The notes beneath the pieces were generated by a model. It saw only the letters and a list, made by a program, of their open reading frames with translations. It did not search any database and was not told the origin of the DNA. Below, one piece after another: positions 959-19,697 of a stretch of 41,045 bases of DNA; within the stretch, counting starts at the first letter, position 1, and each line of letters begins with the position of its first letter. The position numbers were made by a program, and so were the translations under genes. The stretch covers positions 1 through 41,045 of the forward strand of contig JAFDEE010000018.1 in assembly GCA_019310525.1 (NCBI GenBank), given 5' to 3'. The stretch comes from Deltaproteobacteria bacterium (GTDB lineage: Bacteria; Desulfobacterota; DSM-4660; Desulfatiglandales; HGW-15).

Positions 959-3727
959 ATGGACGGAGAGAAGACAATCTACATCGATGGTCAAGCGTAC
1001 GGTTTTAAAGACGGTGAAACGATTTTACAGGTTGCGGAGCGAAACGGGATCCATATCCCGACCCTGTGTTACCTGAAGGGGTGTACTCCGACCGGGGCGT
1101 GCCGCATCTGTGTGGTGGAAGTGGAAGGGGCCCGTTCCCTCATGGCCGCCTGTGCAACCCCTGCTGAACCCGAAATGAAGGTGAAAACGGAATCGAAAAG
1201 GGTGATTGAGGAACGCCGTCTGAATATCGAGCTGCTCCTGGCCTCGGGAAATCACAATTGCCTGGTTCAGGACCTGGATATCGAGTCATGGACGGATTTC
1301 CAACTGGACTCCCTGGCTGTCCCCGAACACGAAACCCTGTGTCCCGCGTACGGGGATTGCAGGCTCCAGGAACTGGCCGTTCAGTACCAGGTTCGGTGTA
1401 ACAGTTTCACGCCTTCGGAAACCAAGTATCCCATCGAAAACGTCAATCCCTTCATTATCCGGGATTTTTCCCGTTGCGTGCTTTGCGGTCGATGCGTGCA
1501 GGCCTGTAACGAGGTTCAGGTCAACAACGCCATCAGCTACGGATACCGGGGCACTGAAGGAAAGATCGTTGCCAAAGGAGACAGACCCCTGAAGGATTCG
1601 GATTGCGTTTTCTGTGGGGAATGTATCCAGGTTTGCCCTGTCGGGGCGTTGGTGAGCAAGAAGGACCTGGAACTGGGTACCAGGGCGGGCGCGGAACGAA
1701 AGGTTCGTACAACGTGCTCCTATTGCGGTGTTGGGTGCCAGATTTATCTGCATGTAAGAGACGGCCGGGTCGTTCGGGTCACGGGTGTGGAGGACGTTGG
1801 CCCCAATCATGGGAGCCTTTGTGTGAAGGGCCGTTTCGGTTACGATTTCATCCATGATCCTGAACGGCTCACCAGACCCCTGATCAAGGAGAACGGCGAA
1901 TTCCGTGAGGCGAGCTGGGAAGAGGCCCTGGATCTGGTGGCCCGTCGCCTTGGAGAAATCAAGACGGCCTCGGGTCCCGACGCCATCGGCGTGCTCACCT
2001 CGGCCAGGATCACCAATGAAGAAAATTACGTGGTGCAGAAGTTCGCCCGGGCGGTGCTGGGGACCAATAACGTCGATCACTGTGCCAGGCTCTGACACAG
2101 CTCCACGGTGGCCGGTCTGGCCGCCGCCTTTGGAAGCGGAGCAATGACTAATCCTATCGAGGACATTGAGAAGGCCGAGGTTATCCTCATTACTGGCTCC
2201 AATACCACCGAAAACCATCCCGTCCTCTCCTCATACGTTAAGCGGGCTGTTGTCCATAAAGGGGCCAAGCTGATCGTCGTGGATCCGCGAAAGATCAACA
2301 TCACGCGTTTTGCCGCCAAGTGGCTCCGGCCCAACCTTGGAACGGACGTGGCCTGGATCAACGGGATGATGCATGTCATCCTGAAGGAAGGACTCTATCC
2401 GGAGGACTATGTCAAGACAAGAACGGTGGGTTTCGAGGACTTGAAAAAGACGGTGGAGAAATACACTCCTCAGTACGTGGAGGAGATCACAGGCATCCCG
2501 AAGGAGGATCTCATCGAAGCGGCGCGGATGTATGGTTCCGCCCGAGCCGCCTCCATTCTCTATGCCATGGGGATTACACAGCACATCACCGGCACGGACA
2601 ACGTCAAGTCCCTGGCCAATTTGGCCATGCTTTGTGGAAACGTGGGGGTGGAAGGCGGCGGTGTCAATCCCCTGCGGGGGCAGAACAACGTCCAGGGGGC
2701 CTGCGACATGGGCGGATTGCCCAATGTCTACACGGGCTACCAGAAGGTAGCGGACGAGGCCGTGCGCAAGCGGATGGCGGAGGCCTGGGGGGTCGGGGAA
2801 CTGCCTGCCGAACCGGGCTTGACCGTTACCCGTATGATGCAGGAGGCCCATGAGGGAAACCTCAAGGCCATGTACATCATAGGGGAGAACCCCATGGTCT
2901 CGGACGCTGACCTGAACCATGCCGAAGCCGGGTTGAAAAAACTGGATTTTTTGGTTGTCCAGGATATTTTCCTGACCGAGACGGCCCGGGTGGCCGACGT
3001 GGTGTTGCCGTCCGCTTCCTTCGCAGAGAAGGAGGGAACTTTCACCAACACGGAACGCAAGGTTCAGCGCGTCAGAAAGGCCGTTGAAAGCCCGGGAGAG
3101 GCCCTGGAAGACTGGCGGATCATCAGCGGGCTGGCCACCCGGATGGGCTATGAGATGACGTACGGGAGCGCCGCCGAGATCATGGAGGAGATTGGACGGG
3201 TGACCCCTTCCTATTGCGGCATCGATTTCGGGAGGCTTGAGAAGGACGGCATCCATTGGCCCTGCCCGGCGACCGACCATCCCGGGACACCTTGCCTCCA
3301 CGTGGATCAGTTTACCTGCGGGCTCGGCGTGTTTCATGCAATCGATTTTAAACCTCCCGCCGAGGTCCCGGACGAGGAATACCCCCTGTACCTCACCACC
3401 GGACGCGTGCTTTTCCAGTACCACACGGGGACCATGACCATGAAAACGGACGATCTGAACGTACTCGCTCCCGAATGTTTCGTGGAGATCGCCCGAGCGG
3501 ATGCCGAGACTTATGGGCTGAAGAGTGGTGATCTCGTAAGGATCGGGTCGAGGCGGGGACAGATCGAGGTCAAGACCCTTGTTTCGGAGAGGGCCGTGCC
3601 CGGCACCGTGTTCATCCCCTTCCACTACGTGAAGGCCGCCGCCAACAGGCTGACGAACAACGCCCTCGATCCCATCGCGGGTATACCGGAGTTCAAGGTT
3701 TGCGCCGTCAGGATCGAGAAGGCCTAG
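959..3727 (+). CDS. fdhA: Formate dehydrogenase catalytic subunit, selenoprotein
   Basis: This molybdenum or tungsten bis-MGD formate dehydrogenase oxidises formate to CO2 or runs in reverse. The frame is interrupted by an in-frame TGA at 2093-2095, read here as selenocysteine 379 within the family motif C-A-R-L-U-H-S. Both halves share one frame, giving 922 residues. N-terminal to the catalytic domain are a 2Fe-2S domain (C37, C48, C51, C65), a His/Cys cluster (H99, C101, C128, C134), and two 4Fe-4S motifs (C173-C183, C216-C226). The 4Fe-4S site of the molybdopterin domain starts at C253, C256 and C260. This HydA/NuoG-like electron-transfer arm is typical of soluble NAD-linked or bifurcating enzymes. 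No signal peptide is present, so it should be cytoplasmic. The NuoE-like gene starts 14 bases downstream. The start is supported by AGG/GGAGAG just upstream. Confidence 0.95.
2093..2125 (+). promoter_or_regulatory. Bacterial SECIS element with UGA selenocysteine codon
   Basis: The TGA at 2093-2095 is followed, after 11 bases, by a 7-bp stem: GGTGGCC at 2107-2113 pairs with GGCCGCC at 2119-2125, with one G-U pair. The loop is GGTCT. Spacing and loop closely match the E. coli fdhF SECIS, whose apical loop also carries GGUCU. It should recruit SelB and Sec-tRNA to decode the UGA. The selenocysteine machinery genes (selA, selB, selC) are not in the window. Confidence 0.88.
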
Positions 3728-3741
3728 GAGGAGAAAGACCC

Positions 3742-4245
3742 ATGGGATACAAAGCCGAGATCCTTTCCGCAATCAATCCGGACCTGACCCCTGAAGTGAT
3801 GGAGAAAGTGGATGAGATCCTGGAACGAAACCGGGGCAAACCGGGGAGCCTGATTCCGGTCCTCGAGGAATGCCAGGGAGTCGTGGGTTATCTCCCCCTT
3901 GAACTCCAGGAGTACATTGCAGAGAGCCTCAATATCCCCGGCAGCACGGTCTTTGGGGTCGTCACCTTCTATTCCTTCTTTTCCATGGTGCCGAAAGGGC
4001 GGCACACCATCAAGGTTTGCATGGGCACCGCCTGCTACGTCAGGGGAACCAAGAGGATCATGCAGAGGCTCAAGGAGGATTTCGGTCTCGAGGTGGGTCA
4101 AACGAGTGATGACCGCAGGTTCACTCTCCAGGCTGTCCGTTGCCTCGGGGCCTGTGGATTGGCACCGGCCGTGGTGATCGACGAAGACACCCACGGAGGG
4201 GTCAGGCCGGAGAAGATCGGGAAAATCCTGGAACGCTACCAGTAG
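3742..4245 (+). CDS. NuoE/HydC-like [2Fe-2S] subunit
   Basis: This 167-residue protein is a thioredoxin-fold 2Fe-2S subunit related to the 24-kDa subunit of complex I (NuoE) and to HydC of bifurcating hydrogenases. The cluster ligands are visible as C-M-G-T-A-C and C-L-G-A-C in the second half. It should pass electrons between the NuoF-like flavin subunit (8767-10593) and FdhA. The ATG at 3742 has a strong AGGAGGAG eight bases upstream, so the upstream TTG that extends the frame into fdhA is not preferred. Together, fdhA, this gene and the NuoF-like gene make a three-subunit NAD-linked formate dehydrogenase. Confidence 0.92.
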   Translation: MGYKAEILSAINPDLTPEVMEKVDEILERNRGKPGSLIPVLEECQGVVGYLPLELQEYIAESLNIPGSTVFGVVTFYSFFSMVPKGRHTIKVCMGTACYVRGTKRIMQRLKEDFGLEVGQTSDDRRFTLQAVRCLGACGLAPAVVIDEDTHGGVRPEKIGKILERYQ

Positions 4246-4261: not shown

Positions 4262-4621
4262 GTGAAGCTGTCTGAGATCAGAGATATCCTTAAAGCCACC
4301 GTGGTGGTCGGCGAAGACAAGCTGGATATGACCATTGAAAAGGGGGCTGGAACCGACCTGATGAGCGATCTTCTCAGGGGTCCCACCAGCGGGGTGCTCC
4401 TGTTGTCGGGCCTCAACAACATTCAGACCATCCGAACCTCCGTGATCGCCGGGGTGGCAGCTTTAGTGCTGGTCAGGAATAAGACCCCGGACCAGGAAAT
4501 GATCGAGCAGGCGCGGCAGCACGATTTACCGCTTCTTTCGACCCCCTTTACCATGTTTACGGCCTGTGGGAGGCTTTTCAGGCACGGGCTTCGGGGCGTG
4601 GAAGACAAATCCCCGAAGTAG
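4262..4621 (+). CDS. DRTGG-domain protein (first copy)
   Basis: This 119-residue protein starts at GTG with GGGGTCG upstream. It resembles the small DRTGG-domain proteins found next to NADH-linked hydrogenase and formate dehydrogenase genes. The core has a GTDLMSDLL segment, a stretch of short hydrophobic beta-strands, and VIAGVAALVLVRNK followed by a helix and LPLLSTPFTMF. A second copy lies at 6359-6706. The biochemical role of the stand-alone domain is not established. Its position suggests ligand or redox sensing tied to the enzyme. There is no membrane segment. Confidence 0.75.
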   Translation: MKLSEIRDILKATVVVGEDKLDMTIEKGAGTDLMSDLLRGPTSGVLLLSGLNNIQTIRTSVIAGVAALVLVRNKTPDQEMIEQARQHDLPLLSTPFTMFTACGRLFRHGLRGVEDKSPK

Positions 4622-4640
4622 GGTGCCTCCTTCATTCGCC

Positions 4641-5090
4641 ATGCCCCAGTTGACAAAGACCTTCCCCATCAAGGCCCGGGATTTCATCAGGGCGGGTGAA
4701 GTCTCCATTCAGATCCAAGGTTTGCTTAAGACCATCGGTTTCGAACCCGCTCTGATCAGGCGCGTTTCCATCTGTGCCTATGAATCGGAGATGAACGTGG
4801 TCATGCACGGTGGGGATGGGACTTTAACCCTGAACGTGGATCCTTCCGTCATCCTCATCGAAGTGAAGGACGACGGGCCGGGGATTGAAAATATCGAATT
4901 GGCCTTCCAGGAGGGGTACAGTACTGCTTCCAAGGAATACAGGGAAATGGGATTCGGCGCGGGCATGGGTCTGCCCAATATCAAGAAAAGCGCTGATACC
5001 GTTGAAATCCGTTCCCAAAAAGGCGGGGGCACGTATCTGAAAATGTGCTTCCTGTTGAGCAGGGGCGATGGGCAAGGGACGGGAAAATAA
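4641..5090 (+). CDS. Orphan GHKL ATPase, anti-sigma-factor-kinase-like
   Basis: A 149-residue protein consisting almost entirely of an HATPase_c domain, like RsbW/SpoIIAB. The N-box is E-S-E-M-N-V-V-M-H-G, the G1 box is D-D-G-P-G-I-E and the G2 box is G-F-G-A-G-M-G-L. It has no dimerisation/phosphoacceptor histidine domain and no sensor domain. The chosen ATG gives a compact domain; the frame extends upstream through the end of the DRTGG gene, but that part is not conserved-looking. It overlaps the next gene by 23 bases, so translation is probably coupled. It may bind or phosphorylate a partner encoded in the cluster. No sigma factor or anti-anti-sigma factor is visible nearby. Confidence 0.8.
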   Translation: MPQLTKTFPIKARDFIRAGEVSIQIQGLLKTIGFEPALIRRVSICAYESEMNVVMHGGDGTLTLNVDPSVILIEVKDDGPGIENIELAFQEGYSTASKEYREMGFGAGMGLPNIKKSADTVEIRSQKGGGTYLKMCFLLSRGDGQGTGK

Positions 5091-6369
5091 CCTGCCGACA
5101 CACTATGTCCAGATCGATGACAAGCTGTGCAATGGATGCGTTCTTTGCATGAAGGCCTGCCCCACCAAGGCCATCCGGGTAAGGAACGGAAAGGCACGGA
5201 TCCGGGGCGTCTGTATCGACTGCGGGGAATGTATCCGCGCCTGCCCGAGGGGGGCTGTCAAGGCGATCACGACCGTACAGGACGCCGCCAGGATGAAGCC
5301 TTACACCATTCTCAGCTCTTCACCGGTCCTTTACACCCAGTTCGGGGAAGAGGTCACACCCAACGACATCCTCCTGGCCCTCCGGAAGGTTTTCAGACAT
5401 GTTTACGATCAGGCCTATGTAAACGAATTGTTCAACGTGGCCACCGAATTTTACATCCGGGAAAGGCGGGAAACGGAAGAGGAAGGATGGCCCTTGATTT
5501 CACCGATCTGCCCGGTGGTTAACCGGCTGATCGCCTATCGTTTTCCTCAGCTCTTCAAGAATATTTTGCCTCTCATCCCGCCGCGGGAGATCGCCGCCCG
5601 GGAAGTGAGACGCCGTCTTTATTGCGAGTCCGTCTTCAAGACCGAGGAATTCGGCATCTATCACCTCTCTCCCTGCTCGGCGAAGATGATCTCCATTAAG
5701 GAACCCCTGTTTTTGAACTCTTCTTATCTGGACGGGGCCCTCGGGATCAACGAGGTATACGAGGAGATCAAGAAATTTATTGGGAAAGACAACAGTAACA
5801 TCATGATCCACAGATCAGGGGGTGTCGGGATCTGGTGGGGGATGTCCGGTGGGGAGATCGCCGGCCTGGACAGCGGGAAGTACCTCGCGGTCTCTGGTAT
5901 GCCGGAAACCATCAAGTACCTGGAAATGATCGAAATGGGCCTCCTCGGAAATATCGAGTACGTGGAGTTTCGGGCATGTTCAGAGGGGTGCATCGGGGGA
6001 CCAATGACGGCGGTGGACAAGTACGAGGCCAAGCACGTTCTGCAAAAACTGGTCCGAACTTACGGGGTCCGGAAAAAAGTGGACTATTCCCAGGCCCGGA
6101 AGGCCTACCGGGAAGGCTGGTTTTTGGCGGACCGCAAAACCGATATCCCCCCGCATCGATCCGGGACTCTCTCAATCTCCGAGGCCATTCAGAGACAGGA
6201 GCGGGTGGAAGAAGTTTACCGTCTGCTTCCCAAGAAGGAATGCGGGATCTGTGGAAGTCCCGATTGTCGTACCTTTGCGGAGGATGTGGTGGACGGGGAA
6301 GCCGATTTGGACGACTGCCCCATCCACAAAAGCAGGGACAGAAAGGTGAAGATCGTACATGAAGGCTAG
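5068..6369 (+). CDS. [FeFe]-hydrogenase-like H-cluster domain protein, HydS-type
   Basis: A 433-residue protein. Two 4Fe-4S motifs (C21-C31, C49-C59) are followed by an [FeFe]-hydrogenase large-subunit domain. The C-terminal four-cysteine Fe-S motif (C392, C395, C400, C417; spacing x2, x4, x16) is like that of RnfB. The four cysteines that hold the H-cluster seem to be kept: C148 in S-P-I-C-P-V-V, C203 in S-P-C-S-A-K, C304 and C308 in A-C-S-E-G-C-I-G-G. The first cysteine of the usual T-S-C-C-P motif, which carries protons in active enzymes, is replaced by isoleucine. This pattern fits the sensory (group C, HydS) branch rather than a fast hydrogenase. Unlike typical HydS it lacks a PAS domain. 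It is probably a redox or H2 sensor. Maturases HydEFG are not in the window. Confidence 0.8.
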   Translation: MGKGRENNLPTHYVQIDDKLCNGCVLCMKACPTKAIRVRNGKARIRGVCIDCGECIRACPRGAVKAITTVQDAARMKPYTILSSSPVLYTQFGEEVTPNDILLALRKVFRHVYDQAYVNELFNVATEFYIRERRETEEEGWPLISPICPVVNRLIAYRFPQLFKNILPLIPPREIAAREVRRRLYCESVFKTEEFGIYHLSPCSAKMISIKEPLFLNSSYLDGALGINEVYEEIKKFIGKDNSNIMIHRSGGVGIWWGMSGGEIAGLDSGKYLAVSGMPETIKYLEMIEMGLLGNIEYVEFRACSEGCIGGPMTAVDKYEAKHVLQKLVRTYGVRKKVDYSQARKAYREGWFLADRKTDIPPHRSGTLSISEAIQRQERVEEVYRLLPKKECGICGSPDCRTFAEDVVDGEADLDDCPIHKSRDRKVKIVHEG

Positions 6370-6706
6370 AGAACTCATCAGGCTTTTTGAATTGGAAACA
6401 GCGGCAGGGGAAAAGGGGTTGGATCGGGAGATCGAGGCCGGGTACTGCGGGGACCTGCTCAGCGATGTAATGGCCAATGCCCCACGCGGGGCGGTGTGGC
6501 TCACGGTTCAATCCCACCAGAACATCGTTGCGGTGGCTGTCCTCAGGGAGATGGCGGCCGTCATCCTGGTCAACGGGCGCCCTCCGGATGAAGAGACCAA
6601 GGCGAAGGCCGAGGAAGAAGGGATCCCCATTTTCGTGACTTCCCGGGGGGCTTACGAGATGGCCGGGCTCCTTTACAAGGCCGGGATCAGCGGAAATATC
6701 GGGTGA
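6359..6706 (+). CDS. DRTGG-domain protein (second copy)
   Basis: A 115-residue paralogue of the protein at 4262-4621: a charged N-terminal helix, then G-Y-C-G-D-L-L-S-D-V, a hydrophobic core, AVLREMAAVILVNGR and I-P-I-F-V-T-S near the end. The start codon overlaps the end of the hydrogenase-like gene by 11 bases, and its TGA overlaps the GTG start of the next gene by 4, so the genes are translated as a unit. The duplication of DRTGG and ATPase genes on each side of the H-cluster gene suggests two matching regulatory pairs. Function is unknown. Confidence 0.75.
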   Translation: MKARELIRLFELETAAGEKGLDREIEAGYCGDLLSDVMANAPRGAVWLTVQSHQNIVAVAVLREMAAVILVNGRPPDEETKAKAEEEGIPIFVTSRGAYEMAGLLYKAGISGNIG

Positions 6707-7452
6707 GACGTTTCAAGGCGGACCTCCATATCCATTCCTGCCTCTCCCCCTGTGGGGATCTGGACATGAGCCCCAGGGGGATAGTGGAGGCGAGTCTTCA
6801 GAAGGGACTGGACCTGATCGCCCTTTGTGATCATAATACGGCCGAAAATGTGGGGGCCGTCATCCGGGCGGGGAAGGAACGGGGCCTGTGGGTCCTTCCC
6901 GGGATGGAGGTCAACTCTTACGAGGAGGTTCATTCTTTGGCCTTATTTGACCGGGAAGCACAGGTTCTGGAAATGCAGACGTTCGTTTATAACCACCTGC
7001 AGGGAACCAATCGCCCCGAACTTTTCGGCGAGCAGGTGGTGGCCAACGAGTTCGACGAGGTTGAAGGATTTAATGACCGGCTGTTGATCGGGGCAACGGG
7101 AATCCGGTTGGTTGACATCATTAATAAAGTCCATCGCCTGGGAGGACTTTGCATCGCCTCCCATGTGGACCGGCCCAGCTATAGTGTCGTAAGCCAACTG
7201 GGCTTCATATCACCTGGGCTGGAATTTGACGCACTCGAGGTTTCGCCCAGGACGGACCTGGAAAAGGCACGAAAGGATATTCCAGGGGCTGCGGATTACC
7301 CCTTGGTGACATTCTCGGACGCCCACTTCCTTAAGGATATCGGCGGGGTCTGCACGGAATTCCTCCTTGATCACCCCGGGATCGAGGAGATTCGGATGGC
7401 CTTGAAACAGGAGCAAGGGAGGGGCATTGTGGAGGGGCCTTGCGGGAACTAG
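6703..7452 (+). CDS. PHP-domain metal-dependent phosphoesterase
   Basis: A 249-residue PHP-family hydrolase. The metal-binding motifs are D-L-H-I-H-S near the N-terminus, C-D-H-N-T-A, G-M-E-V-N, E-E-V-H-S-L-A, A-S-H-V-D-R and S-D-A-H-F near the C-terminus. This is the usual set of histidines and acids for a three-metal site. GTG start, overlapping the previous stop by 4 bases. The family includes phosphatases such as those acting on nucleotides or histidinol phosphate; the substrate here cannot be told. Its place between a DRTGG protein and a GHKL ATPase suggests that it removes a signalling phosphate or degrades a small nucleotide. Confidence 0.85.
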   Translation: MRRFKADLHIHSCLSPCGDLDMSPRGIVEASLQKGLDLIALCDHNTAENVGAVIRAGKERGLWVLPGMEVNSYEEVHSLALFDREAQVLEMQTFVYNHLQGTNRPELFGEQVVANEFDEVEGFNDRLLIGATGIRLVDIINKVHRLGGLCIASHVDRPSYSVVSQLGFISPGLEFDALEVSPRTDLEKARKDIPGAADYPLVTFSDAHFLKDIGGVCTEFLLDHPGIEEIRMALKQEQGRGIVEGPCGN

Positions 7453-8015
7453 CCCTTCATATCATGGATATTATTGAGAACGGCATCAATGCCGGGGCGG
7501 GCCTGATCCGGTTGAATATTCAGGAAGATCGAAGGAAGAATCGACTTCGGATTACCATACAGGACAACGGACGCGGTATTCCCAGGGAGATCCTGGACAA
7601 AGTGACCGATCCCTTTTTCACCACCCGGACCGCCCGCAGGGTGGGACTCGGGCTCTCGTTATTCCGGGAGGCCAGCAAACGGTGCGGGGGAGAGTTCAAG
7701 ATCGATTCCAGGCCCGGTGAGGGTACGACCGTGGAGGCCACGTTTCAAATGGACCATATTGATCTGGCCCCCATGGGGGATCTCACCGGGGCCCTGACCA
7801 CCCTGATGATGGGAAGCCCGGAGGTGGATTTCCTTTACACCCATGAAATCGATGGAAGGCGGTTCGTCCTGGATACGAGGGAGATCAGGGAAACTCTGGA
7901 TGGGGTCCCCCTGAATAATGCCCGGATCCTGAAGTTTATTTCCGATATGATCGAAGGGGGAGTCGAGGAGATAAGAGGGCTGCAAGAAAAAGGGGGAGAA
8001 GGGATCGAGGACTGA
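7440..8015 (+). CDS. Orphan histidine-kinase-type GHKL ATPase
   Basis: A 191-residue protein with the ATPase half of a histidine kinase: N-box H-I-M-D-I-I-E-N-G-I-N-A-G, G1 box D-N-G-R-G-I-P, F-box D-P-F-F-T-T-R, G2 box G-L-G-L-S-L-F. It lacks a HisKA phosphoacceptor domain and any sensor. The last 70 residues form an extra domain of unknown fold. The TTG start is chosen because a GGAGGGG lies just upstream and the codon overlaps the end of the PHP gene, giving tight coupling. It could be the catalytic part of a split kinase whose sensor is the H-cluster protein, but this is inference. Confidence 0.78.
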   Translation: MRELALHIMDIIENGINAGAGLIRLNIQEDRRKNRLRITIQDNGRGIPREILDKVTDPFFTTRTARRVGLGLSLFREASKRCGGEFKIDSRPGEGTTVEATFQMDHIDLAPMGDLTGALTTLMMGSPEVDFLYTHEIDGRRFVLDTREIRETLDGVPLNNARILKFISDMIEGGVEEIRGLQEKGGEGIED

Positions 8016-8121: not shown

Positions 8122-8532
8122 ATGGCCAAACTGACCATCGAGGACCTCAAGAGAATCAAAGAGCAGGTTAAAAAGGATACGGCCCTGCGGGAGGGCGGCG
8201 CCACGGTGAAGATCACGGTTCACATGGGGACTTGCGGGATCGCCGCCGGAGCAAGGGAGGTGATGGACGCCCTATTGCAGGAAATGGCGGAGACGGACCG
8301 GCAGGATATCCGGGTGGTCACCTCGGGGTGCATGGGGATGTGCAGCAGCGAGCCCAACGTGACGGTGGAGGTGCAAGGACACGACCCTGTGGTTTATCAA
8401 GGGATGGACGCTAATAAGATGCGGCAGGTCTTCAAACGACATGTATTGCTGGGGGAAGTTCAGACCGACTTCGCGTTGGCCAGGATGAAAGAAGAATCCC
8501 CTGAGGAGGGGTCTGCTGAACAGGAGACGTAG
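8122..8532 (+). CDS. Thioredoxin-like [2Fe-2S] ferredoxin
   Basis: This 136-residue protein has a NuoE-like thioredoxin fold with ligands G-T-C-G-I-A-A-G-A and S-G-C-M-G-M-C. It is similar to the N-terminal domain of the NuoF-like protein encoded next. Proteins of this type are common next to HydB/HydC genes and probably shuttle electrons or stabilise the complex. A GGGGAGGAG ribosome binding site sits upstream of the ATG. The last 20 residues are acidic and probably disordered. The gene follows a 106-base spacer and precedes a 234-base spacer, in which no gene is visible. Confidence 0.85.
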   Translation: MAKLTIEDLKRIKEQVKKDTALREGGATVKITVHMGTCGIAAGAREVMDALLQEMAETDRQDIRVVTSGCMGMCSSEPNVTVEVQGHDPVVYQGMDANKMRQVFKRHVLLGEVQTDFALARMKEESPEEGSAEQET

Positions 8533-8766: not shown

Positions 8767-10593
8767 ATGAGCACTTACCGAACCCACCTCCTCCTTTGCG
8801 GGGGAACGGCGTGTCACGCCACCGGGAGCCAGGCAGTCAAGGAAGCTCTGCTGAAAGAAATCGCAAAGCAGGGCCTGGAAAAGGAAGTACGGGTGATTGA
8901 AACCGGCTGTAACGGCTTCTGCGCCCAGGGACCCGTTATGGTAGTCCAACCGGAAGGCATCTTTTACCAGAAGCTCACTCCCAAGGATATCCCTTACCTC
9001 GTGGAGGAACACTTCCTAAAGGGCCGTCCCGTGGAGAGACTTTTCTACGTGGAGCCGGCCTCTTCCGAGACCATACCGGGCATGAACGAAATCCCCTTCT
9101 TTTCACGCCAGGTCTTGAGGGTCTTGAGAAACAAGGGGGCCATTGATCCTGAAAAGATAGATGAATACATCGCCCGGGACGGGTATCTCGGCACCGCAAA
9201 GGCCCTCCTGGAGATGACGCCCGATGAGATCATCGCCGAGCTGGAAAAATCCGGGTTGAGGGGGCGCGGCGGGGCCGGATTCCCCACCTATCTCAAGTGG
9301 AAGTTCGCCAAGGCCTCTCCCGGAGAAGTCAAATACATGCTTTGCAACGCCGACGAAGGAGACCCCGGTGCCTTTATGGATCGAAGCGTACTGGAGGCGG
9401 ATCCCCATGCCGTGCTGGAGGGCATGATCATCGGGGCCAAGACCATCGGTGCCCACTATGGATACATTTACTGTCGTGCGGAATACCCTCTCGCCCTTCG
9501 GCGTCTTGACATCGCCATCTCGCAGGCAAGGGAGTACGGCCTCCTGGGAAAAGATATCCTGGGAAGCGGTTTTGATTTCGACCTGGAGGTTTACCAGGGG
9601 GCCGGGGCCTTTGTCTGCGGCGAGGAGACGGCCCTCATGCATTCCATCGAGGGAAAGAGGGGCATGCCGAGACCCAGGCCGCCTTTCCCGGCCCAGCAGG
9701 GGCTGTGGAAAAGACCGAGTGTGCTGAACAACGTGGAGACCCTTGCCAACGTGCCCCAGATCATCCTGAAGGGTGGAGACTGGTATGCAAGTGTCGGAAC
9801 GGAGGGGAGCAAGGGGACCAAGGTGTTCGCCCTCAGCGGGGACGTGATTAATATCGGCCTGGTAGAAGTGCCCATGGGGATCACCCTCAGGGACATCATT
9901 TTCGAGATCGGGGGGGGGATCCCCGACGGCAAAAAGTTTAAGGCGGTACAGCTGGGTGGCCCCTCGGGCGGATGCGTGCCCGAACATCTCCTGGATACGC
10001 CCACTGACTACGAGGCGATTTCCAAGGTAGGGGCCATCATGGGTTCGGGCGGCATGATCGTCATGGATGAGGAGACCTGCATGGTCGATATGGCCCGTTT
10101 CTTCATCGATTTCTGCAAGGAAGAATCTTGCGGGAAGTGCACTCCCTGCAGGGAGGGCACCAAGAGGATGCTGGAAATCCTGGAGAGGATCACCGAAGGG
10201 AAGGGGGAAATCGAGGATATCGAACGGTTGGAGGAGTTGAGCCGGTTCGTCAAGGATTCCGCACTCTGCGGACTTGGACAGACGGCTCCCAACCCGGTGC
10301 TCTCCACGATCCGATATTTCAGGGAGGAATACGAGGCCCATATCCTCGAGGGGCGTTGTCCCGCCCTTGTGTGCCAGGCTTTGATCACCTATTCCATTGA
10401 CACGGAGGCATGTAAGTCCTGCGGTCTTTGCAAGAAGAATTGCCCGGCAGAGGCTATAACGGGCTCCAAGAAACCACCCGAGCCCTTTGTGATCCATGAG
10501 GAAAAGTGTATCCATTGCGGGGTGTGCTTCAGTGGATGCCCCTTCGACGCCATAAAAAAGAGCTCGGGGAGCAAGGTGGCCCGGGCGGCTTAG
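8767..10593 (+). CDS. NuoF/HydB-like NAD(H)-binding flavoprotein subunit
   Basis: A 608-residue protein with three parts. Residues 1-95 form a thioredoxin-like 2Fe-2S domain (C11, C16, C48, C52). The middle is the NuoF core, with the FMN/NAD-binding motifs G-R-G-G-A-G-F-P, C-N-A-D-E-G-D-P-G and G-A-G-A-F-V-C-G-E-E, and a 4Fe-4S site C-G-K-C-T-P-C-R-E-G with a distal cysteine. The C-terminus holds two ferredoxin-type 4Fe-4S motifs (C-K-S-C-G-L-C, C-I-H-C-G-V-C). This exact layout is that of HydB in bifurcating hydrogenases. It should bind NAD(H) and link it to ferredoxin and, through FdhA, to formate. AAGGAG lies upstream of the ATG. Bifurcation itself is inferred from family resemblance. Confidence 0.93.
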   Translation: MSTYRTHLLLCGGTACHATGSQAVKEALLKEIAKQGLEKEVRVIETGCNGFCAQGPVMVVQPEGIFYQKLTPKDIPYLVEEHFLKGRPVERLFYVEPASSETIPGMNEIPFFSRQVLRVLRNKGAIDPEKIDEYIARDGYLGTAKALLEMTPDEIIAELEKSGLRGRGGAGFPTYLKWKFAKASPGEVKYMLCNADEGDPGAFMDRSVLEADPHAVLEGMIIGAKTIGAHYGYIYCRAEYPLALRRLDIAISQAREYGLLGKDILGSGFDFDLEVYQGAGAFVCGEETALMHSIEGKRGMPRPRPPFPAQQGLWKRPSVLNNVETLANVPQIILKGGDWYASVGTEGSKGTKVFALSGDVINIGLVEVPMGITLRDIIFEIGGGIPDGKKFKAVQLGGPSGGCVPEHLLDTPTDYEAISKVGAIMGSGGMIVMDEETCMVDMARFFIDFCKEESCGKCTPCREGTKRMLEILERITEGKGEIEDIERLEELSRFVKDSALCGLGQTAPNPVLSTIRYFREEYEAHILEGRCPALVCQALITYSIDTEACKSCGLCKKNCPAEAITGSKKPPEPFVIHEEKCIHCGVCFSGCPFDAIKKSSGSKVARAA

Positions 10594-10705: not shown

Positions 10706-12661
10706 GTGTTGATTCGCATAGAGCGGTTCTGCTGCCTTTTCATCGCATGTCTGGCTTTATCGGCGGTTGCCTCGGCGTGGATGCCCTCTGAGGCCAATGG
10801 ACAGGTCCGGCGGGGAAAGGCCGTCCCTGCCCATCGACTCCCGGAATCATTGAGGACGCTTGAGATCAAAGACTTCTACGTGCCCGGGGACCTGAAAGCG
10901 GTGGGGCGTATTCAACGCATGAGCGGGACCGTAGTGGTGGTCCATGAACCATCGAAGAAGGCTTACTTTGGTGCGGCTGGAGACCTGATACATGAAAAGG
11001 ACACCATCATAACCCTACCTGATTCCCGGTGCCGGATCTCTTTTTCCGGTGATGACGTGGTGGCCATGGCCCCCGACACCCGTTTCAGCGTAGAGCTTTA
11101 CCGGGAGCAGGAGATGGAGGGAAAACGGTCTTTTTTCAGTATGTTGAAGGGTAAGGCCATGTTTTATGCCCTTCGCCTTTTCAGGTACAGGGACACCCGG
11201 TTCAGGGTGAAGACTCCTACGGCCATCGTGGGGGTCAGGGGGACCAAGTTCGGGATTCATGTTTACTGGGTTGAAGAGCGGCGGGCCGATGGGGCAGGGA
11301 TCAGGATAGCAGACCGCAGGGACAATGCGGACCTCTATTTGGCCCAGGCCGGTTCCGAGGAGGGCGGGATAAAGAGTTATACAGACTGTTTTTCGGAGGA
11401 CGGCATCCTGGATGTAAACGGAAGGATCGTTCATCCCGGCGAGATGTTCAAGGGGGACACAGGACTCGTAGTTCCCACGCCGCCGGAGTATATCAGGGCC
11501 TTTGAGGCCGAGACCGAGGTGGCCCCGGAAGGGGAAGGCGTTTCGGGCGGTGAGGGTGAAGGTAAGAAGGAGGGCGAAGCCGAGGCCGGTAAGGGCGGCC
11601 AGCAGGAAGGTGAGGGTGAAGGGAAGGATGAATCTTCCGAGGGGGGCGTAGCAGCCATGGATAGCGGTGGGGCCACGACACCTGAGGATTTCTCTGAATT
11701 TGCCGGTAAACAGGCCGAAACCACCCAACAGGAGGTAGCAACCGAGACAGAGGCCGAACAGGATATTTCCAATGGAAAAATCATCAGGGAGGTGGGCGGT
11801 ATCGCCCTGCTCCTGGCAAATGCCGCAGGCCAGTTATGGACCGGGACGGACAAGGGCCCCTTATACCATTCCAGTGAGCCCAACTATTTTCGGTCTTCCG
11901 GGGGAGCGGATTCCTTTACGGCATACGAAGACAGGCACGAAAACAATTCCGCTTATAAGCTGGTAGCCGATGAGACGGATGCCTCCGGTTCCAGGATCCA
12001 CGTGAACACCTTTGACTGGGGCACAGGGGGCAATCTGGCTTTGACCTCCCCTCATGATTTCGATTACCACCTGGGTGGGCGTTACTATGACGCGGAGGGG
12101 AACGAATACCTGGAGTGGGGATGGTGGGAGGATTCATCCGCAACAGACAAGGGTTTATTGGGAGAGGGATCAGGATTACAGTACTTTGCAGCCGGGGCCA
12201 AGATCTGGCACATCGAGGGAAAACAGACCCATCCGGATTATATCGATTACTTGCAGGGACAAGGGGCGAGCTACAAGTATACGGGCGAAGTCAAAGGGGT
12301 TTTCGGGGACAGTTCGGCGAGTTTCTCGCCTCCGACGGTGGTAACAGGGACCTTTAGTTGTGATGTCAATTTTCAGTTCCGGGCCGTATCCAACTTCGAA
12401 CTCGATGCGAGCGGCGGCACTGCACCGGTGGTCAATGTGAACCTGAGCGACGGGAGCGGGACCATTGAAAGCGACGGAACCTTTGACCTTGAGAACTTTT
12501 CAGGAACCATCGGTCCCGGCAGCGGCCATTCTGTTTCTTCGACTCAGACCGGTGGGGGCGGGACCTTTTTCGGGAAAAAGGCCGAGGGAATAGGGGGTAT
12601 GTGGCACGCCCATGATGGGTCCGATTACTGGGCCGTGGGTGAGTTCCATGGCAAGAGGTGA
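10706..12661 (+). CDS. Secreted FecR-domain protein with TbpB-like C-terminus
   Basis: A 651-residue exported protein. A signal peptide (about residues 1-26, hydrophobic core after R-I-E-R) is followed by a FecR-type domain (about 65-180) ending in the motif P-T-A-I-V-G-V-R-G-T-K-F. Next is a low-complexity acidic and glycine-rich stretch of Gly-Glu-rich units (about 270-315). The C-terminal 250 residues are rich in Gly, Ser and aromatic residues and end in G-T-F-F-G-K-K-A-E-G-I-G-G and a closing G-K-R, which recalls the beta-barrel of transferrin-binding protein B. The GTG start has GGAGGA five bases upstream. No FecI sigma factor or TonB receptor is next to it, so it is unlikely to be a classical FecR anti-sigma protein. 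Function unknown; possibly cell-surface. Confidence 0.75.
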   Translation: MLIRIERFCCLFIACLALSAVASAWMPSEANGQVRRGKAVPAHRLPESLRTLEIKDFYVPGDLKAVGRIQRMSGTVVVVHEPSKKAYFGAAGDLIHEKDTIITLPDSRCRISFSGDDVVAMAPDTRFSVELYREQEMEGKRSFFSMLKGKAMFYALRLFRYRDTRFRVKTPTAIVGVRGTKFGIHVYWVEERRADGAGIRIADRRDNADLYLAQAGSEEGGIKSYTDCFSEDGILDVNGRIVHPGEMFKGDTGLVVPTPPEYIRAFEAETEVAPEGEGVSGGEGEGKKEGEAEAGKGGQQEGEGEGKDESSEGGVAAMDSGGATTPEDFSEFAGKQAETTQQEVATETEAEQDISNGKIIREVGGIALLLANAAGQLWTGTDKGPLYHSSEPNYFRSSGGADSFTAYEDRHENNSAYKLVADETDASGSRIHVNTFDWGTGGNLALTSPHDFDYHLGGRYYDAEGNEYLEWGWWEDSSATDKGLLGEGSGLQYFAAGAKIWHIEGKQTHPDYIDYLQGQGASYKYTGEVKGVFGDSSASFSPPTVVTGTFSCDVNFQFRAVSNFELDASGGTAPVVNVNLSDGSGTIESDGTFDLENFSGTIGPGSGHSVSSTQTGGGGTFFGKKAEGIGGMWHAHDGSDYWAVGEFHGKR

Positions 12662-13439: not shown

Positions 13440-14723
13440 ATGATCAAAAGATCATTTTTCGGTCTGATCAAACCCAAAATGACCTTGCCGGTAACAGCAG
13501 GAGAAAAGAGGACATTGATCGAATCTCTTCCCCTGCCGAAAAAGGCGGTACTGTTGTTGGACCCGGAAAAGACCGGTGAGGTGGAACTCACCGTGAAATC
13601 CGGTGACACCGTGCGAACGGGGCAGAAGATCGGGGTTGACAAGGACGGGTTTTATCTCGTTTCTCCGGTGACCGGGACGGTCACGGCCCTTGGCCGACAG
13701 GCCGGACACCTCGGCCAGGTATACCAGTCGATCACGGTGGAGGTGGCCGAGGAGGATCAGTGGGATGAGGAATTCAGCGCTGCAGCAGGAGAATCAGGCC
13801 GGGAGAGTATCCTGCCTTTCCTGGGCATCCTTCCCGGGGCCGCTGATTTCAGGAACTTTCTGAATCCCGGGCATTCTTACGATACGGTCATCATCAGCGC
13901 CATGGAACAGGATCTGATGGTGGAGACCAGCCGCTATGTCCTGAAACATCAGGCCAAGGACGTCAAGGAGGGAATCGAAGTCCTGAAGGAGATTCGGCCT
14001 GCCGGCCGGTATGTCTTGGTCGCCCCCCCTGACCTCCTTTCCTTGACGGCTCGCTCAGGAGCGGAAGGCCAGACAGTTGATCCGGTTTACCCCAATAACC
14101 TGCCGGGGATGATAGTCAGGAAGGTCATGGGAAAAGCGGTCCCTGCAGGGAAGCGTTTCGAAGAGGCGGGCGTCGGATACCTCAACGTTGAGGCGGTCGC
14201 CGCCCTGGGGAGGGTCTTCAGGGACCGGACTCCACAACTTGACAAGGTGATCACGGTGATCCGGAAGGACAAGACGACCCAGATGATCAAGGTGCGTATG
14301 GGCACGCCGGTGGGAGAAATCCTCGGACCTATGGGTATCGAGGCGAACCACGGGGATCGGATCGTCTTCGGGGGCCCCATGAGAGGTCCGACGGTCTTCT
14401 CAGAAGACCTCCCGGTCTCGGCGGACACGGATGCCGTAATGGTCCAGGACAAGGCGGAACTCCTCCCTTATGTGGACAACCATTGCGTTAATTGCGGAGA
14501 GTGTGTGAGAATCTGCCCGGCCAAGATTCCGGTCAACATGCTTATTCGGTTGCTTCAGAGCGGTCTCTTCGAGGAAGCCGCTGATCGCTATGACCTCTTT
14601 TCCTGCATAGAATGCGGATTGTGCAGTTTCGTCTGTATCGCGCGAATCCCTATCTTTCAGTATATCATGCTCGGGAAATACGAATACGACAGGATGAAAG
14701 GAGCGGAGGAATCCAATGGCTAG
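13440..14723 (+). CDS. rnfC: Rnf complex subunit RnfC
   Basis: A 427-residue peripheral subunit of the ion-translocating ferredoxin:NAD oxidoreductase. The order is an N-terminal barrel-sandwich-like domain (P-V-T-G-T-V region), a NuoF-like FMN/NADH-binding domain, an SLBB-like region, and two 4Fe-4S motifs near the C-terminus (C-V-N-C-G-E-C-V-R-I-C-P and C-I-E-C-G-L-C-S-F-V-C). RnfC is the NADH-side subunit in the cytoplasm. GAGGAGG precedes the ATG by eight bases. The end overlaps rnfD by 8 bases. The length is close to the family norm. Confidence 0.95.
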   Translation: MIKRSFFGLIKPKMTLPVTAGEKRTLIESLPLPKKAVLLLDPEKTGEVELTVKSGDTVRTGQKIGVDKDGFYLVSPVTGTVTALGRQAGHLGQVYQSITVEVAEEDQWDEEFSAAAGESGRESILPFLGILPGAADFRNFLNPGHSYDTVIISAMEQDLMVETSRYVLKHQAKDVKEGIEVLKEIRPAGRYVLVAPPDLLSLTARSGAEGQTVDPVYPNNLPGMIVRKVMGKAVPAGKRFEEAGVGYLNVEAVAALGRVFRDRTPQLDKVITVIRKDKTTQMIKVRMGTPVGEILGPMGIEANHGDRIVFGGPMRGPTVFSEDLPVSADTDAVMVQDKAELLPYVDNHCVNCGECVRICPAKIPVNMLIRLLQSGLFEEAADRYDLFSCIECGLCSFVCIARIPIFQYIMLGKYEYDRMKGAEESNG

Positions 14724-17516: not shown

Positions 17517-17615
17517 TCCATCCATGTTTAAAAGGGATTGTTGCCGCCCGTCCTTTACGGCGGGAGGCCGGAAGCTGAAAGGCCCTTTTATCAGACTCGA
17601 AACAGGAGGCACTCG

Positions 17616-19697
17616 ATGATACTTGGCGGGATTCTCATCATGGGAGCGGTCGGCGCCGTGGTGGGCGTGGGTTTGGCCCTGGCGTCAAAGATATTCTATG
17701 TTTACGTGGATCCCAAGATCGAAGCCGTAGAGGAGGCCCTGCCGGGCGCCAATTGCGGTGGTTGCGGTTACCCGGGTTGCAGCGCCAATGCTGTGGCTAT
17801 TGTTGAAGGAAGGGCCTCCGCATCCTCTTGTGTGGCAGGAGGACCCGAGATCGCCGCCGAAATCGCTGAAATCATGGGTGTGAAATTGGAAGCCCGGGAG
17901 CCCGATATCGCGAGGCCGGGGTGCCGATACGGTTATGAGGATGCGGATCTGAAGTACCTGTACGACGGAATCCCGGACTGCCGCGCCATGGCGTTGCTGA
18001 AGGGCGGGTCAAAGGTATGTCCCATCGGATGCCTGGGAATGGGGACCTGTGTACGCGCCTGCCCCTTTGGTGCCCTTTCCATGGGGCCGGATCATCTGCC
18101 CGTTGTGGATCCGGAGAAATGCACCGGATGCGGGACCTGTGAGAGGGTCTGCCCGAAGCATATCATCACCCTTTCCTCCTATACGCGGAGGATGCAGAAA
18201 GAATACACCACCGACGATTGCACGGCGCCCTGCCAGAGGGCGTGCCCCGCGGGAATCGATATTCCTTCCTACATCCGGGAGATCAGGGAGGGGCGTTACC
18301 TGGAAGCGATTCGAGTCATCAAGGAGACCAATCCCTTCCCCGCGGTTTGCGGCCGGATCTGCGTGCACCCCTGCGAATATGAATGCAGGCGGAACCTGGT
18401 GGATGAGCCTGTGGCCATCAATCATCTCAAACGCTTCGCCGCGGATTATGAGATGAAGTCCGGCGAACGGGTCCAGATTCCCAGGGCCCCGGAAACAGGG
18501 CGAAAGATCGCCGTCGTGGGTGGTGGTGCAGAGGGACTTACCGCGGCCTACTTCTTGAACCGACTTGGTCACGATGCCTCGGTGTATGAGGCCACCTCGA
18601 GGCTCGGGGGCTTGCTACACTCAGGGATTCCGGAGAACCGCTTACCGCGGGATATCCTGGAATACGAGATCAACGGAATTCTGGATGCGGGCGTACAGGC
18701 GTACACCAACAGGAAACTGGGTCGGGATTTCACAATCGATTCGCTTTTCAAAGAAGGTTATGAAGCCGTCCTCGTGGCCATCGGCGGATGGGATACCCAG
18801 ATGAGTGTCAAGGAAAGGGAGGCGGCCCCGTCCACCAAGGCCCTGCCCGGTGTGCGGTTCCTATTGGATTTCCTGCTGGACGTAAGGGCTGGAAGGGATC
18901 CCGGTGTGGGGGAAAACGTGATGATCGTGGGGGGAGGAAAGGCGGCGCTGGAGGCTGCCAGGCATTCTCTCCAGGCGGGCGCAAAGGTGGTCAACATCGT
19001 ATCCCGGAAGGGAAGGGATGAGTGGCCTCTGGACCGGGTGGAGCTGGAAAAATTGGAGAGGGAGGAAGGGATTCGGTTCTTTTTTGAGGCCGCACTCACT
19101 CGGATGATGGGGGAAGGCCCAGCCTTGAAGCAGGTGGAAATCACCAGCACCCACGCACAGGGTGAAGAGAAAGAAGACATGAATGAATTGATCCCGGTGG
19201 ATACCTTACTCACCGGGGCCGGCCGTTTTCCTGAGTTGATCTACGTTCCCCGGCGGACCGAAGAAGAAAGTGCTTCCCGGCCCGAAGGGCCCGTTTCCTG
19301 GGAAACCGTGGTCCCTTATGCGAGCCCCTTCGCCATGGAAGATATCGGAATCTTTCGGCCCGGTGAGGCCTCCGTGGATTACAAGGCGGTGGTGGAGGCC
19401 ATCGGAATGGGTAGAAGATCCGCAGGCTCCCTACATAAGTACTTGAATGGGGAGGCCGTGGAAGCGCCGGACAATATGCTCCGGAGATTCACTCCTGTCC
19501 TCAACATAGAGAGCCTGGAACCGGTGAAGGAGACCCCCAGGGAGCCCATGCCTGAACTGCCCAAGGAAGAGCAGATCGCGGATCCATCAGCGGAGATCGC
19601 TCTCGGTTACTCTGAAGAACAAGCCAGGCGGGAGGCTGAACGCTGCCTCCAATGTGGACTCATCTGTTACCGTCGGGTGGGCGGGAATCCGCACTAG
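17616..19697 (+). CDS. rnfB: RnfB fused to a GltD/NfnB-like NAD(P)H flavoprotein
   Basis: A 693-residue fusion. Residues 1-30 are the RnfB membrane anchor, then the four-cysteine Fe-S domain (C47, C50, C55, C72) and ferredoxin-type 4Fe-4S motifs up to about residue 185 (for example C-T-G-C-G-T-C-E-R-V-C-P). From about 200 on is a complete GltD-type module: Fe-S ligands in C-T-A-P-C-Q-R-A-C-P, an FAD-binding V-V-G-G-G-A-E-G-L-T, a second nucleotide-binding I-V-G-G-G-K-A-A-L-E and a final C-L-Q-C-G. RnfB normally accepts electrons from ferredoxin. The added module could connect Rnf to NAD(P)H directly. There is no stop or frame change at the junction. Start chosen by AGGAGG seven bases upstream; the earlier in-frame start lacks support. 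The 3' end overlaps the convergent RseC-like gene by 38 bases. Confidence 0.93.
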   Translation: MILGGILIMGAVGAVVGVGLALASKIFYVYVDPKIEAVEEALPGANCGGCGYPGCSANAVAIVEGRASASSCVAGGPEIAAEIAEIMGVKLEAREPDIARPGCRYGYEDADLKYLYDGIPDCRAMALLKGGSKVCPIGCLGMGTCVRACPFGALSMGPDHLPVVDPEKCTGCGTCERVCPKHIITLSSYTRRMQKEYTTDDCTAPCQRACPAGIDIPSYIREIREGRYLEAIRVIKETNPFPAVCGRICVHPCEYECRRNLVDEPVAINHLKRFAADYEMKSGERVQIPRAPETGRKIAVVGGGAEGLTAAYFLNRLGHDASVYEATSRLGGLLHSGIPENRLPRDILEYEINGILDAGVQAYTNRKLGRDFTIDSLFKEGYEAVLVAIGGWDTQMSVKEREAAPSTKALPGVRFLLDFLLDVRAGRDPGVGENVMIVGGGKAALEAARHSLQAGAKVVNIVSRKGRDEWPLDRVELEKLEREEGIRFFFEAALTRMMGEGPALKQVEITSTHAQGEEKEDMNELIPVDTLLTGAGRFPELIYVPRRTEEESASRPEGPVSWETVVPYASPFAMEDIGIFRPGEASVDYKAVVEAIGMGRRSAGSLHKYLNGEAVEAPDNMLRRFTPVLNIESLEPVKETPREPMPELPKEEQIADPSAEIALGYSEEQARREAERCLQCGLICYRRVGGNPH

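Follow-up and report, generated by a model that had tools for sequence, protein, structure and literature searches.

The six genes at positions 4262 to 8015 of the window (the whole stretch of DNA analysed here, contig 18, of 41 kb, from a Deltaproteobacteria genome of 3.78 Mb and 96.8 % completeness) form a cassette on the forward strand, between the NuoE gene and the fdx2 and NuoF genes of a formate dehydrogenase (FdhA) cluster. They encode, in this order, a stand-alone DRTGG protein (drtU), a SpoIIAB/RsbW-like ATPase (GHKL1), a HydS-like iron-sulphur protein, a second DRTGG protein (drtD), a PHP-family metallophosphoesterase and a second ATPase (GHKL2). About 100 loci from several phyla share the order of the cassette, far more than expected by chance; HydS is optional in it and the sensor is exchangeable. 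We give an even chance to the reading that the cassette regulates, in an ATP-dependent manner, an NAD(H) oxidoreductase of the NuoE/fdx2/NuoF type, here the formate dehydrogenase. The regulation would probably be based on phosphorylation.

The genes of the window were called by open reading frame (ORF) detection and Pfam/NCBIfam scans, with ORF starts assigned mechanically. The calls bore out the layout given by the first-pass annotation, in which a HydS-like protein devoid of PAS and kinase domains was flanked by DRTGG and GHKL proteins on one side and by DRTGG, PHP and GHKL proteins on the other. Four of the five junctions inside the cassette overlap: HydS shares its first 23 nt with GHKL1 and the later overlaps are of 4-13 nt. 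The drtU/GHKL1 junction is a gap of 19 nt, provided that GHKL1 starts at ATG 4641, which is likely because the listed ORF opens at GTG 4566, within the DRTGG gene.

To follow the cassette in relatives a HydS profile was used, which gave 80 further loci with organism names and, among 297 genomes of the same phylum, matches at 1e-20 in 43. Neighbouring genes were identified with hidden Markov models built for this analysis and with Pfam; many of the genomes are metagenome-assembled genomes (MAGs). Positional counts refer to 112 loci, the denominators being the loci with enough flanking sequence. The RsbW-like gene stood directly upstream of HydS in 104 of 108 loci. The upstream DRTGG gene was present in 85/102, the downstream one in 85/104, the PHP gene in 86/100 and the stand-alone HATPase gene in 68/82, and some of the loci scored as lacking a cassette gene carry it as a fusion. 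Median intergenic gaps inside the cassette were -4 to +14 nt. The linkage in relatives on which the first-pass annotation had made its proposal depend was thus found. In the L150 (5934-11293) and L110 loci a HisKA histidine kinase and an OmpR-type response regulator are encoded directly upstream of the kinase-HydS pair (Pfam-checked for L150).

The usual neighbour of the cassette is a NuoEF-type NAD(H) oxidoreductase whose catalytic subunit varies: HydA, FdhA, a Pyr_redox-type protein or a complex I arm. In Clostridia the genes after the cassette are nuoE-HATPase-fdx2-NuoF-HydA, so the remark that similar gene sets occur with bifurcating hydrogenases proved correct for HydABC in this class. 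In nine loci (L107, L121, L123, L124, L131, L132, L144, L155 and L157) the cassette is divergent from the enzyme operon, and in all nine the GHKL2-type HATPase gene stays with the NuoEF/HydA operon. The divergent loci of Clostridia, with the HATPase gene beside the enzyme genes, fit the layout of the A. woodii hyd operon.

A second search, with the drtU profile, gave matches in 73 of the 297 same-phylum genomes. In at least 19 genomes two DRTGG matches start 785-956 bp apart, a spacing that leaves room for the kinase only and none for HydS. Twenty stretches from this search were retrieved. In ten of them, read gene by gene (L161, L162, L164, L168, L169, L171, L175, L177, L179 and L180) the kinase-DRTGG-PHP-HATPase core stands beside NuoE-fdx2-NuoF with no HydS in between, and in L177 drtU is absent as well. 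Seven of these ten HydS-less cassettes accompany FdhA and two accompany HydA; no Fe_hyd_lg_C protein was found in seven of the ten genomes. In L168 and L169 the cassette kinase bears an N-terminal pair of CBS domains (two families), and the cassette of L168 is interspersed with complex I arm genes. On a tree of concatenated cassette proteins the presence of HydS changes at least four times; this tree and the HydS tree described below are quick searches with SH-aLRT support only. In three other stretches (L165, L172 and L178) a lone drtU lies between NuoE and NuoF, with kinase and PHP genes absent; it is followed by a gene for an FeS/Pyr_redox protein (Pfam-checked in L165).

Natural fusions were found as well. 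drtU and the kinase form a single protein in L090, L091 and L170, HydS and drtD do so in L052, L053 and L056, and HydS and drtU in L062. The HydS fusions put a DRTGG domain at the C-terminus of HydS, where group C HydS has its PAS domain. Taken with the kept order and the tight spacing, the fusions argue that the parts behave as one physical unit. The first-pass annotation had pictured a signalling pathway broken into stand-alone domains with HydS as its sensor; the unity of the parts stands, but HydS as a required sensor does not, given the versions without HydS and those with a CBS-CBS-kinase. The same versions make the core of the cassette testable without hydrogenase chemistry.

The sites expected of the predicted activities are well conserved. 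In drtU, D32, S35 and K74 are invariant in 90/90 homologues, and in drtD S35 is invariant in 87/87 and T49 and N55 in 88/88. Ser35, common to both types, is by its conservation a candidate phosphosite, although its alignment with solved DRTGG structures is weak. The AlphaFold2 (AF2) model of drtU (pLDDT 92.6) matches a CBS-DRTGG pyrophosphatase, AF1212 and the N-domain of HprK/P, with TM scores of 0.74 to 3l31, 0.75 to 2ioj and 0.70 to 1ko7 (HprK-N/DRTGG fold). The best NCBIfam relative of GHKL1 is SpoIIAB (spIIAB, 1.8e-11). GHKL1 shares with SpoIIAB/RsbW the HATPase_c_2 fold, the catalytic Glu-x3-Asn motif of the N-box (E73..N77, numbered from 4566), kept in 106/106 homologues, and the conserved G-boxes DxGPGI and GFGAGMGLPN. 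Unlike SpoIIAB/RsbW it comes without a STAS or sigma partner in the cassette, and some relatives have a DRTGG or CBS fusion instead. The metal-site residues of the PHP protein (H9, H11, D43, H44, E69, H77, H154, D206 and H208) are kept at 98-100 % in 90 homologues. In GHKL2 the Pfam scan found no HisKA/DHp domain, the modelled helix of the CA domain begins at residue 4, and the C-terminus is a domain of about 80 aa of unknown family. Its AF2 model (pLDDT 90) matches the CA domains of WalK and ZraS and also MutL/TopoVI-B. No STAS or sigma partner was found in the window cluster by the ORF and Pfam scans, so the first-pass annotation was right that the cluster supplies neither a phosphoacceptor-histidine domain nor a sigma/anti-sigma partner; four STAS proteins are encoded elsewhere in the genome.

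Table 1. Cassette genes and adjoining oxidoreductase genes in the window
Feature	Position	Strand	Basis
FdhA with fused N-terminal FeS region	959..3727	+	read-through translation
NuoE-like [2Fe-2S] subunit of associated oxidoreductase	3742..4245	+	2Fe-2S_thioredx 3.4e-49
drtU, stand-alone DRTGG protein, upstream type, 119 aa	4262..4621	+	Pfam DRTGG 3.2e-7
GHKL1, SpoIIAB/RsbW-like ATPase, putative Ser/Thr kinase	4641..5090	+	HATPase_c_2/HATPase_c; SpoIIAB
HydS-like protein	5068..6369	+	2x[4Fe-4S] ferredoxin, Fe_hyd_lg_C, PF04060 FeS
drtD, stand-alone DRTGG protein, downstream type, 115 aa	6359..6706	+	Pfam DRTGG 4.2e-6
PHP-family metallophosphoesterase, 249 aa	6703..7452	+	PHP and PHP_C
GHKL2, CA-domain-only histidine-kinase-like ATPase	7440..8015	+	HATPase_c 9.6e-21
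fdx2, thioredoxin-like [2Fe-2S]-fold protein	8122..8532	+	2Fe-2S_thioredx 1.5e-4, below cut-off
NuoF-like FMN/NADH subunit, extra ferredoxin domains	8767..10593	+	Complex1_51K 5.3e-46

The HydS-like protein has the layout of group D (M2e), with two [4Fe-4S] domains, the H-domain and a C-terminal Cx2Cx4Cx16C motif (at residue 392); the Pfam scan found no PAS or kinase domain in it. It is the only Fe_hyd_lg_C protein of the genome. Profile searches of the same genome gave no HydF, HydG or HydE over the cut-off, with the T. maritima control and HydF-containing relatives positive. In the HydS tree the window protein falls within a clade of 36 rows (SH-aLRT 95) from MAGs named Thermodesulfobacteriota/Deltaproteobacteria, Ignavibacteria, Sumerlaeota and Stahlbacteria. 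HydF was found in no genome of this clade, HydE in 0/35 of the clade genomes tested (positive controls 4/4) and HydG, over the cut-off, in 0/22. The Fe_hyd_lg_C proteins of the tested clade genomes are all of the HydS type. One genome (G033) has two, the second being an orphan HydS of the same maturase-free clade (L045, 8974-11211) beside a Rex-type redox repressor gene and with no cassette genes next to it. Outside the clade HydF is present in most genomes; the exceptions are scattered MAGs, and for several of these (Firmicutes), with HydA beside the cassette, incompleteness is the likely cause. MAG incompleteness as the sole cause of the missing HydF was rejected for the clade, since all 36 rows are negative and two of the genomes are single-contig (G015 and G031). 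A 585-aa protein in L092/L093 was considered as an overlooked catalytic HydA and rejected, having an FeS N-terminus but no H-domain motifs.

The cysteines that bind the cubane of the H-cluster are kept in 108/108 proteins of the clade and the rest (C148, C203, C304 and C308 in the window protein), and the clade also retains the C-terminal Cx2Cx4Cx16C motif, whereas the diiron pocket differs. In CpI numbering, position C299 is Ala or Ser in 4/34 clade members versus 69/74 others, position G501 is Gly in 1/34 versus 66/74, position M497 is Arg in 26/34 versus 3/74 and K358 is kept in 22/34 versus 68/74. The clade members share ancestry, so these counts are not independent and reflect one remodelling rather than 34. 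The window protein has Ile at the C299 position and Ser at M353, in line with group D, where C299 is not conserved and M353 is replaced by Ser; at M497 it has Arg and not the Leu of TamHydS. The simplest reading is that HydS of this clade probably lacks the [2Fe] subsite and retains four [4Fe-4S] clusters. The window protein is probably no H2 sensor, because its genome is devoid of HydE, HydF and HydG and the pocket is remodelled. For the same reasons a complete H-cluster is unlikely, and its description as an H-cluster protein was an overstatement. If true, a bacterial lineage, the maturase-free clade, would have turned a hydrogenase homologue into an ordinary iron-sulphur redox protein, and H2 metabolism should not be deduced from HydS genes of this kind in metagenomes.

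TamHydS, a group D protein that has been characterised, has the same domain order and likewise no PAS domain (PMC8163306); H2 does not reduce its C-terminal cluster (PMC13104023). It shares with the window protein Ser at the M353 position, a histidine-kinase-like ATPase as neighbour and a bifurcating-enzyme operon nearby (PMC8163306, PMC13104023). It differs in taking up the [2Fe] subsite when supplied and in having Leu at M497, where the window protein has Arg together with changed C299 and G501 positions and a genome without HydEFG; the partner in its neighbourhood is HydABC rather than Fdh. With group C HydS the window protein shares the H-domain and a C-terminal FeS region feeding an output module. 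In group C the output is PAS with a histidine kinase, and here it would be DRTGG, in trans or fused. Group D HydS, its histidine-kinase-like neighbour and HydE of A. woodii are already known. In the open-licence literature, which is weak evidence on this point, no account was found of the whole cassette, of its HydS-less or CBS versions or of the maturase-free HydS clade. A 2026 paper on TamHydS calls the identification of its interaction partners critical (PMC13104023); the fusions and the constant order name the DRTGG proteins and the RsbW-like kinase as candidates.

From the sequences we infer kinase chemistry, a phosphosite, a phosphatase substrate, a redox signal, an output and signalling by the cassette itself, which could be combined as follows. 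HydS, as a multi-[4Fe-4S] protein without the diiron site, would report how reduced or oxidised the complex's electron pool is. Its change could pass to a DRTGG protein docked at its C-terminus, in the place that PAS has in group C HydS. The DRTGG proteins would control the SpoIIAB/RsbW-like kinase GHKL1 and may also be its phosphorylation substrate, the PHP enzyme would reverse the mark, and GHKL2 would pass the effect on to the enzyme that the oxidoreductase operon encodes. The output would probably be post-translational control of flux through NuoEF. More tentatively, and with the doubt prevailing, the cassette could represent an undescribed, phylum-crossing system of NuoEF control with a constant core (the SpoIIAB-like kinase, two DRTGG adaptors, the PHP phosphatase and the CA-only ATPase) and an exchanged input, which may be an H2-sensing HydS, a [4Fe-4S]-only HydS in genomes that lost HydEFG, or nucleotide-binding CBS domains.

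Several points weigh against a regulatory unit for NuoEF. Five cassettes (L051, L086, L087, L089 and L151) have no NuoF downstream, and in the three checked (L051, L089 and L151) its place is taken by a gene of the IF-2B family (MtnA-like). NuoEF is therefore not the universal partner, and these IF-2B-linked cassettes suggest a different client. Two amidohydrolase genes lie upstream of the cassette in L051. The cassettes of L167 and L170 have no adjoining oxidoreductase, and neither a known RsbW substrate (STAS) nor a transcription factor was found among the cassette genes. The kinase, ATPase and phosphatase roles are predictions read from sequence, and Ser35 is proposed as phosphosite from its invariance. 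HydE of A. woodii (Awo_c27000), a histidine-kinase-like ATP-binding protein of the hyd operon with a possible role in assembly or signalling, is reported not to belong to the active enzyme (PMC3315566). By description GHKL2 resembles it in kind and position and fdx2, with three Cys at residues 38, 70 and 74, is comparable with the small extra subunit HydD; the DRTGG, RsbW, HydS and PHP genes are not discussed for the hyd operon in the passages considered.

The main rival explanation, that the cassette uses ATP to drive assembly or repair, is rather unlikely in our estimate. The GHKL proteins would be Hsp90/MutL-like chaperones, HydS an Fe-S carrier or scaffold, a role proposed for Nar1 in eukaryotes, and the DRTGG and PHP proteins helpers in loading NuoE/NuoF or the catalytic subunit. 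This would explain why the cassette stays with structural genes of the enzyme and not with regulators, and the modelled fold of GHKL2 is compatible with it through the MutL/TopoVI-B matches. HydS without the diiron site would also resemble eukaryotic Nar1, an [FeFe]-hydrogenase-like Fe-S protein with no hydrogenase activity (PMC12621388). Likened by description, Nar1/CIAO3 has the hydrogenase fold and Fe-S sites proposed for the window HydS, but it is a factor of the eukaryotic CIA pathway with no linkage to kinases or NuoEF. T. maritima HydABC produced in E. coli from hydABC alone contained its Fe-S and flavin cofactors and showed full bifurcation once the [2Fe] subcluster was supplied (PMC9499530). 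That result opposes an obligate assembly role there, although it concerns HydABC and not Fdh complexes. The catalytic Glu of SpoIIAB/RsbW type, kept throughout the GHKL1 homologues, also speaks against chaperones, and since CBS domains replace HydS, sensing fits better than Fe-S delivery.

Transcriptional partner switching, with GHKL1 as an anti-sigma factor and kinase, with a STAS or sigma partner from a gene outside the cassette and with the state of HydS setting operon expression, appears improbable. The relationship of GHKL1 to SpoIIAB, the four STAS proteins outside the cluster and the Rex or histidine kinase/OmpR genes adjoining HydS in some loci could be accommodated by it, but no sigma, STAS or DNA-binding gene was a constant member of the cassette in the relatives' loci surveyed, and the Rex and two-component neighbours occur in few of them. 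That HydS bears an H-cluster in this organism, senses H2 and feeds a split histidine-kinase-like pathway is very improbable, for although its fold and cubane ligands are conserved and group D homologues given the H-cluster react with H2 (PMC8163306, PMC13104023), the maturases are missing from this nearly complete genome and from the tested clade members, no other Fe_hyd_lg_C protein is present and the pocket residues are altered.

The remaining observations concern the surroundings of the cassette in the window. The fdhA gene contains an in-frame TGA (2093-2095) at the CARLUH motif, and read-through gives a putative selenocysteine formate dehydrogenase of 922 aa with Sec379. Between NuoF and an apparent rnf cluster that begins near 13440 lies a 651-aa ORF with a signal-peptide-like start (10706-12661). 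The presumed rnf cluster is closed by an ORF (17538-19697) for an RnfB-like protein of 719 aa, which appears by eye to extend into a pyridine-nucleotide-disulphide oxidoreductase (NfnB/GltD-like) region.

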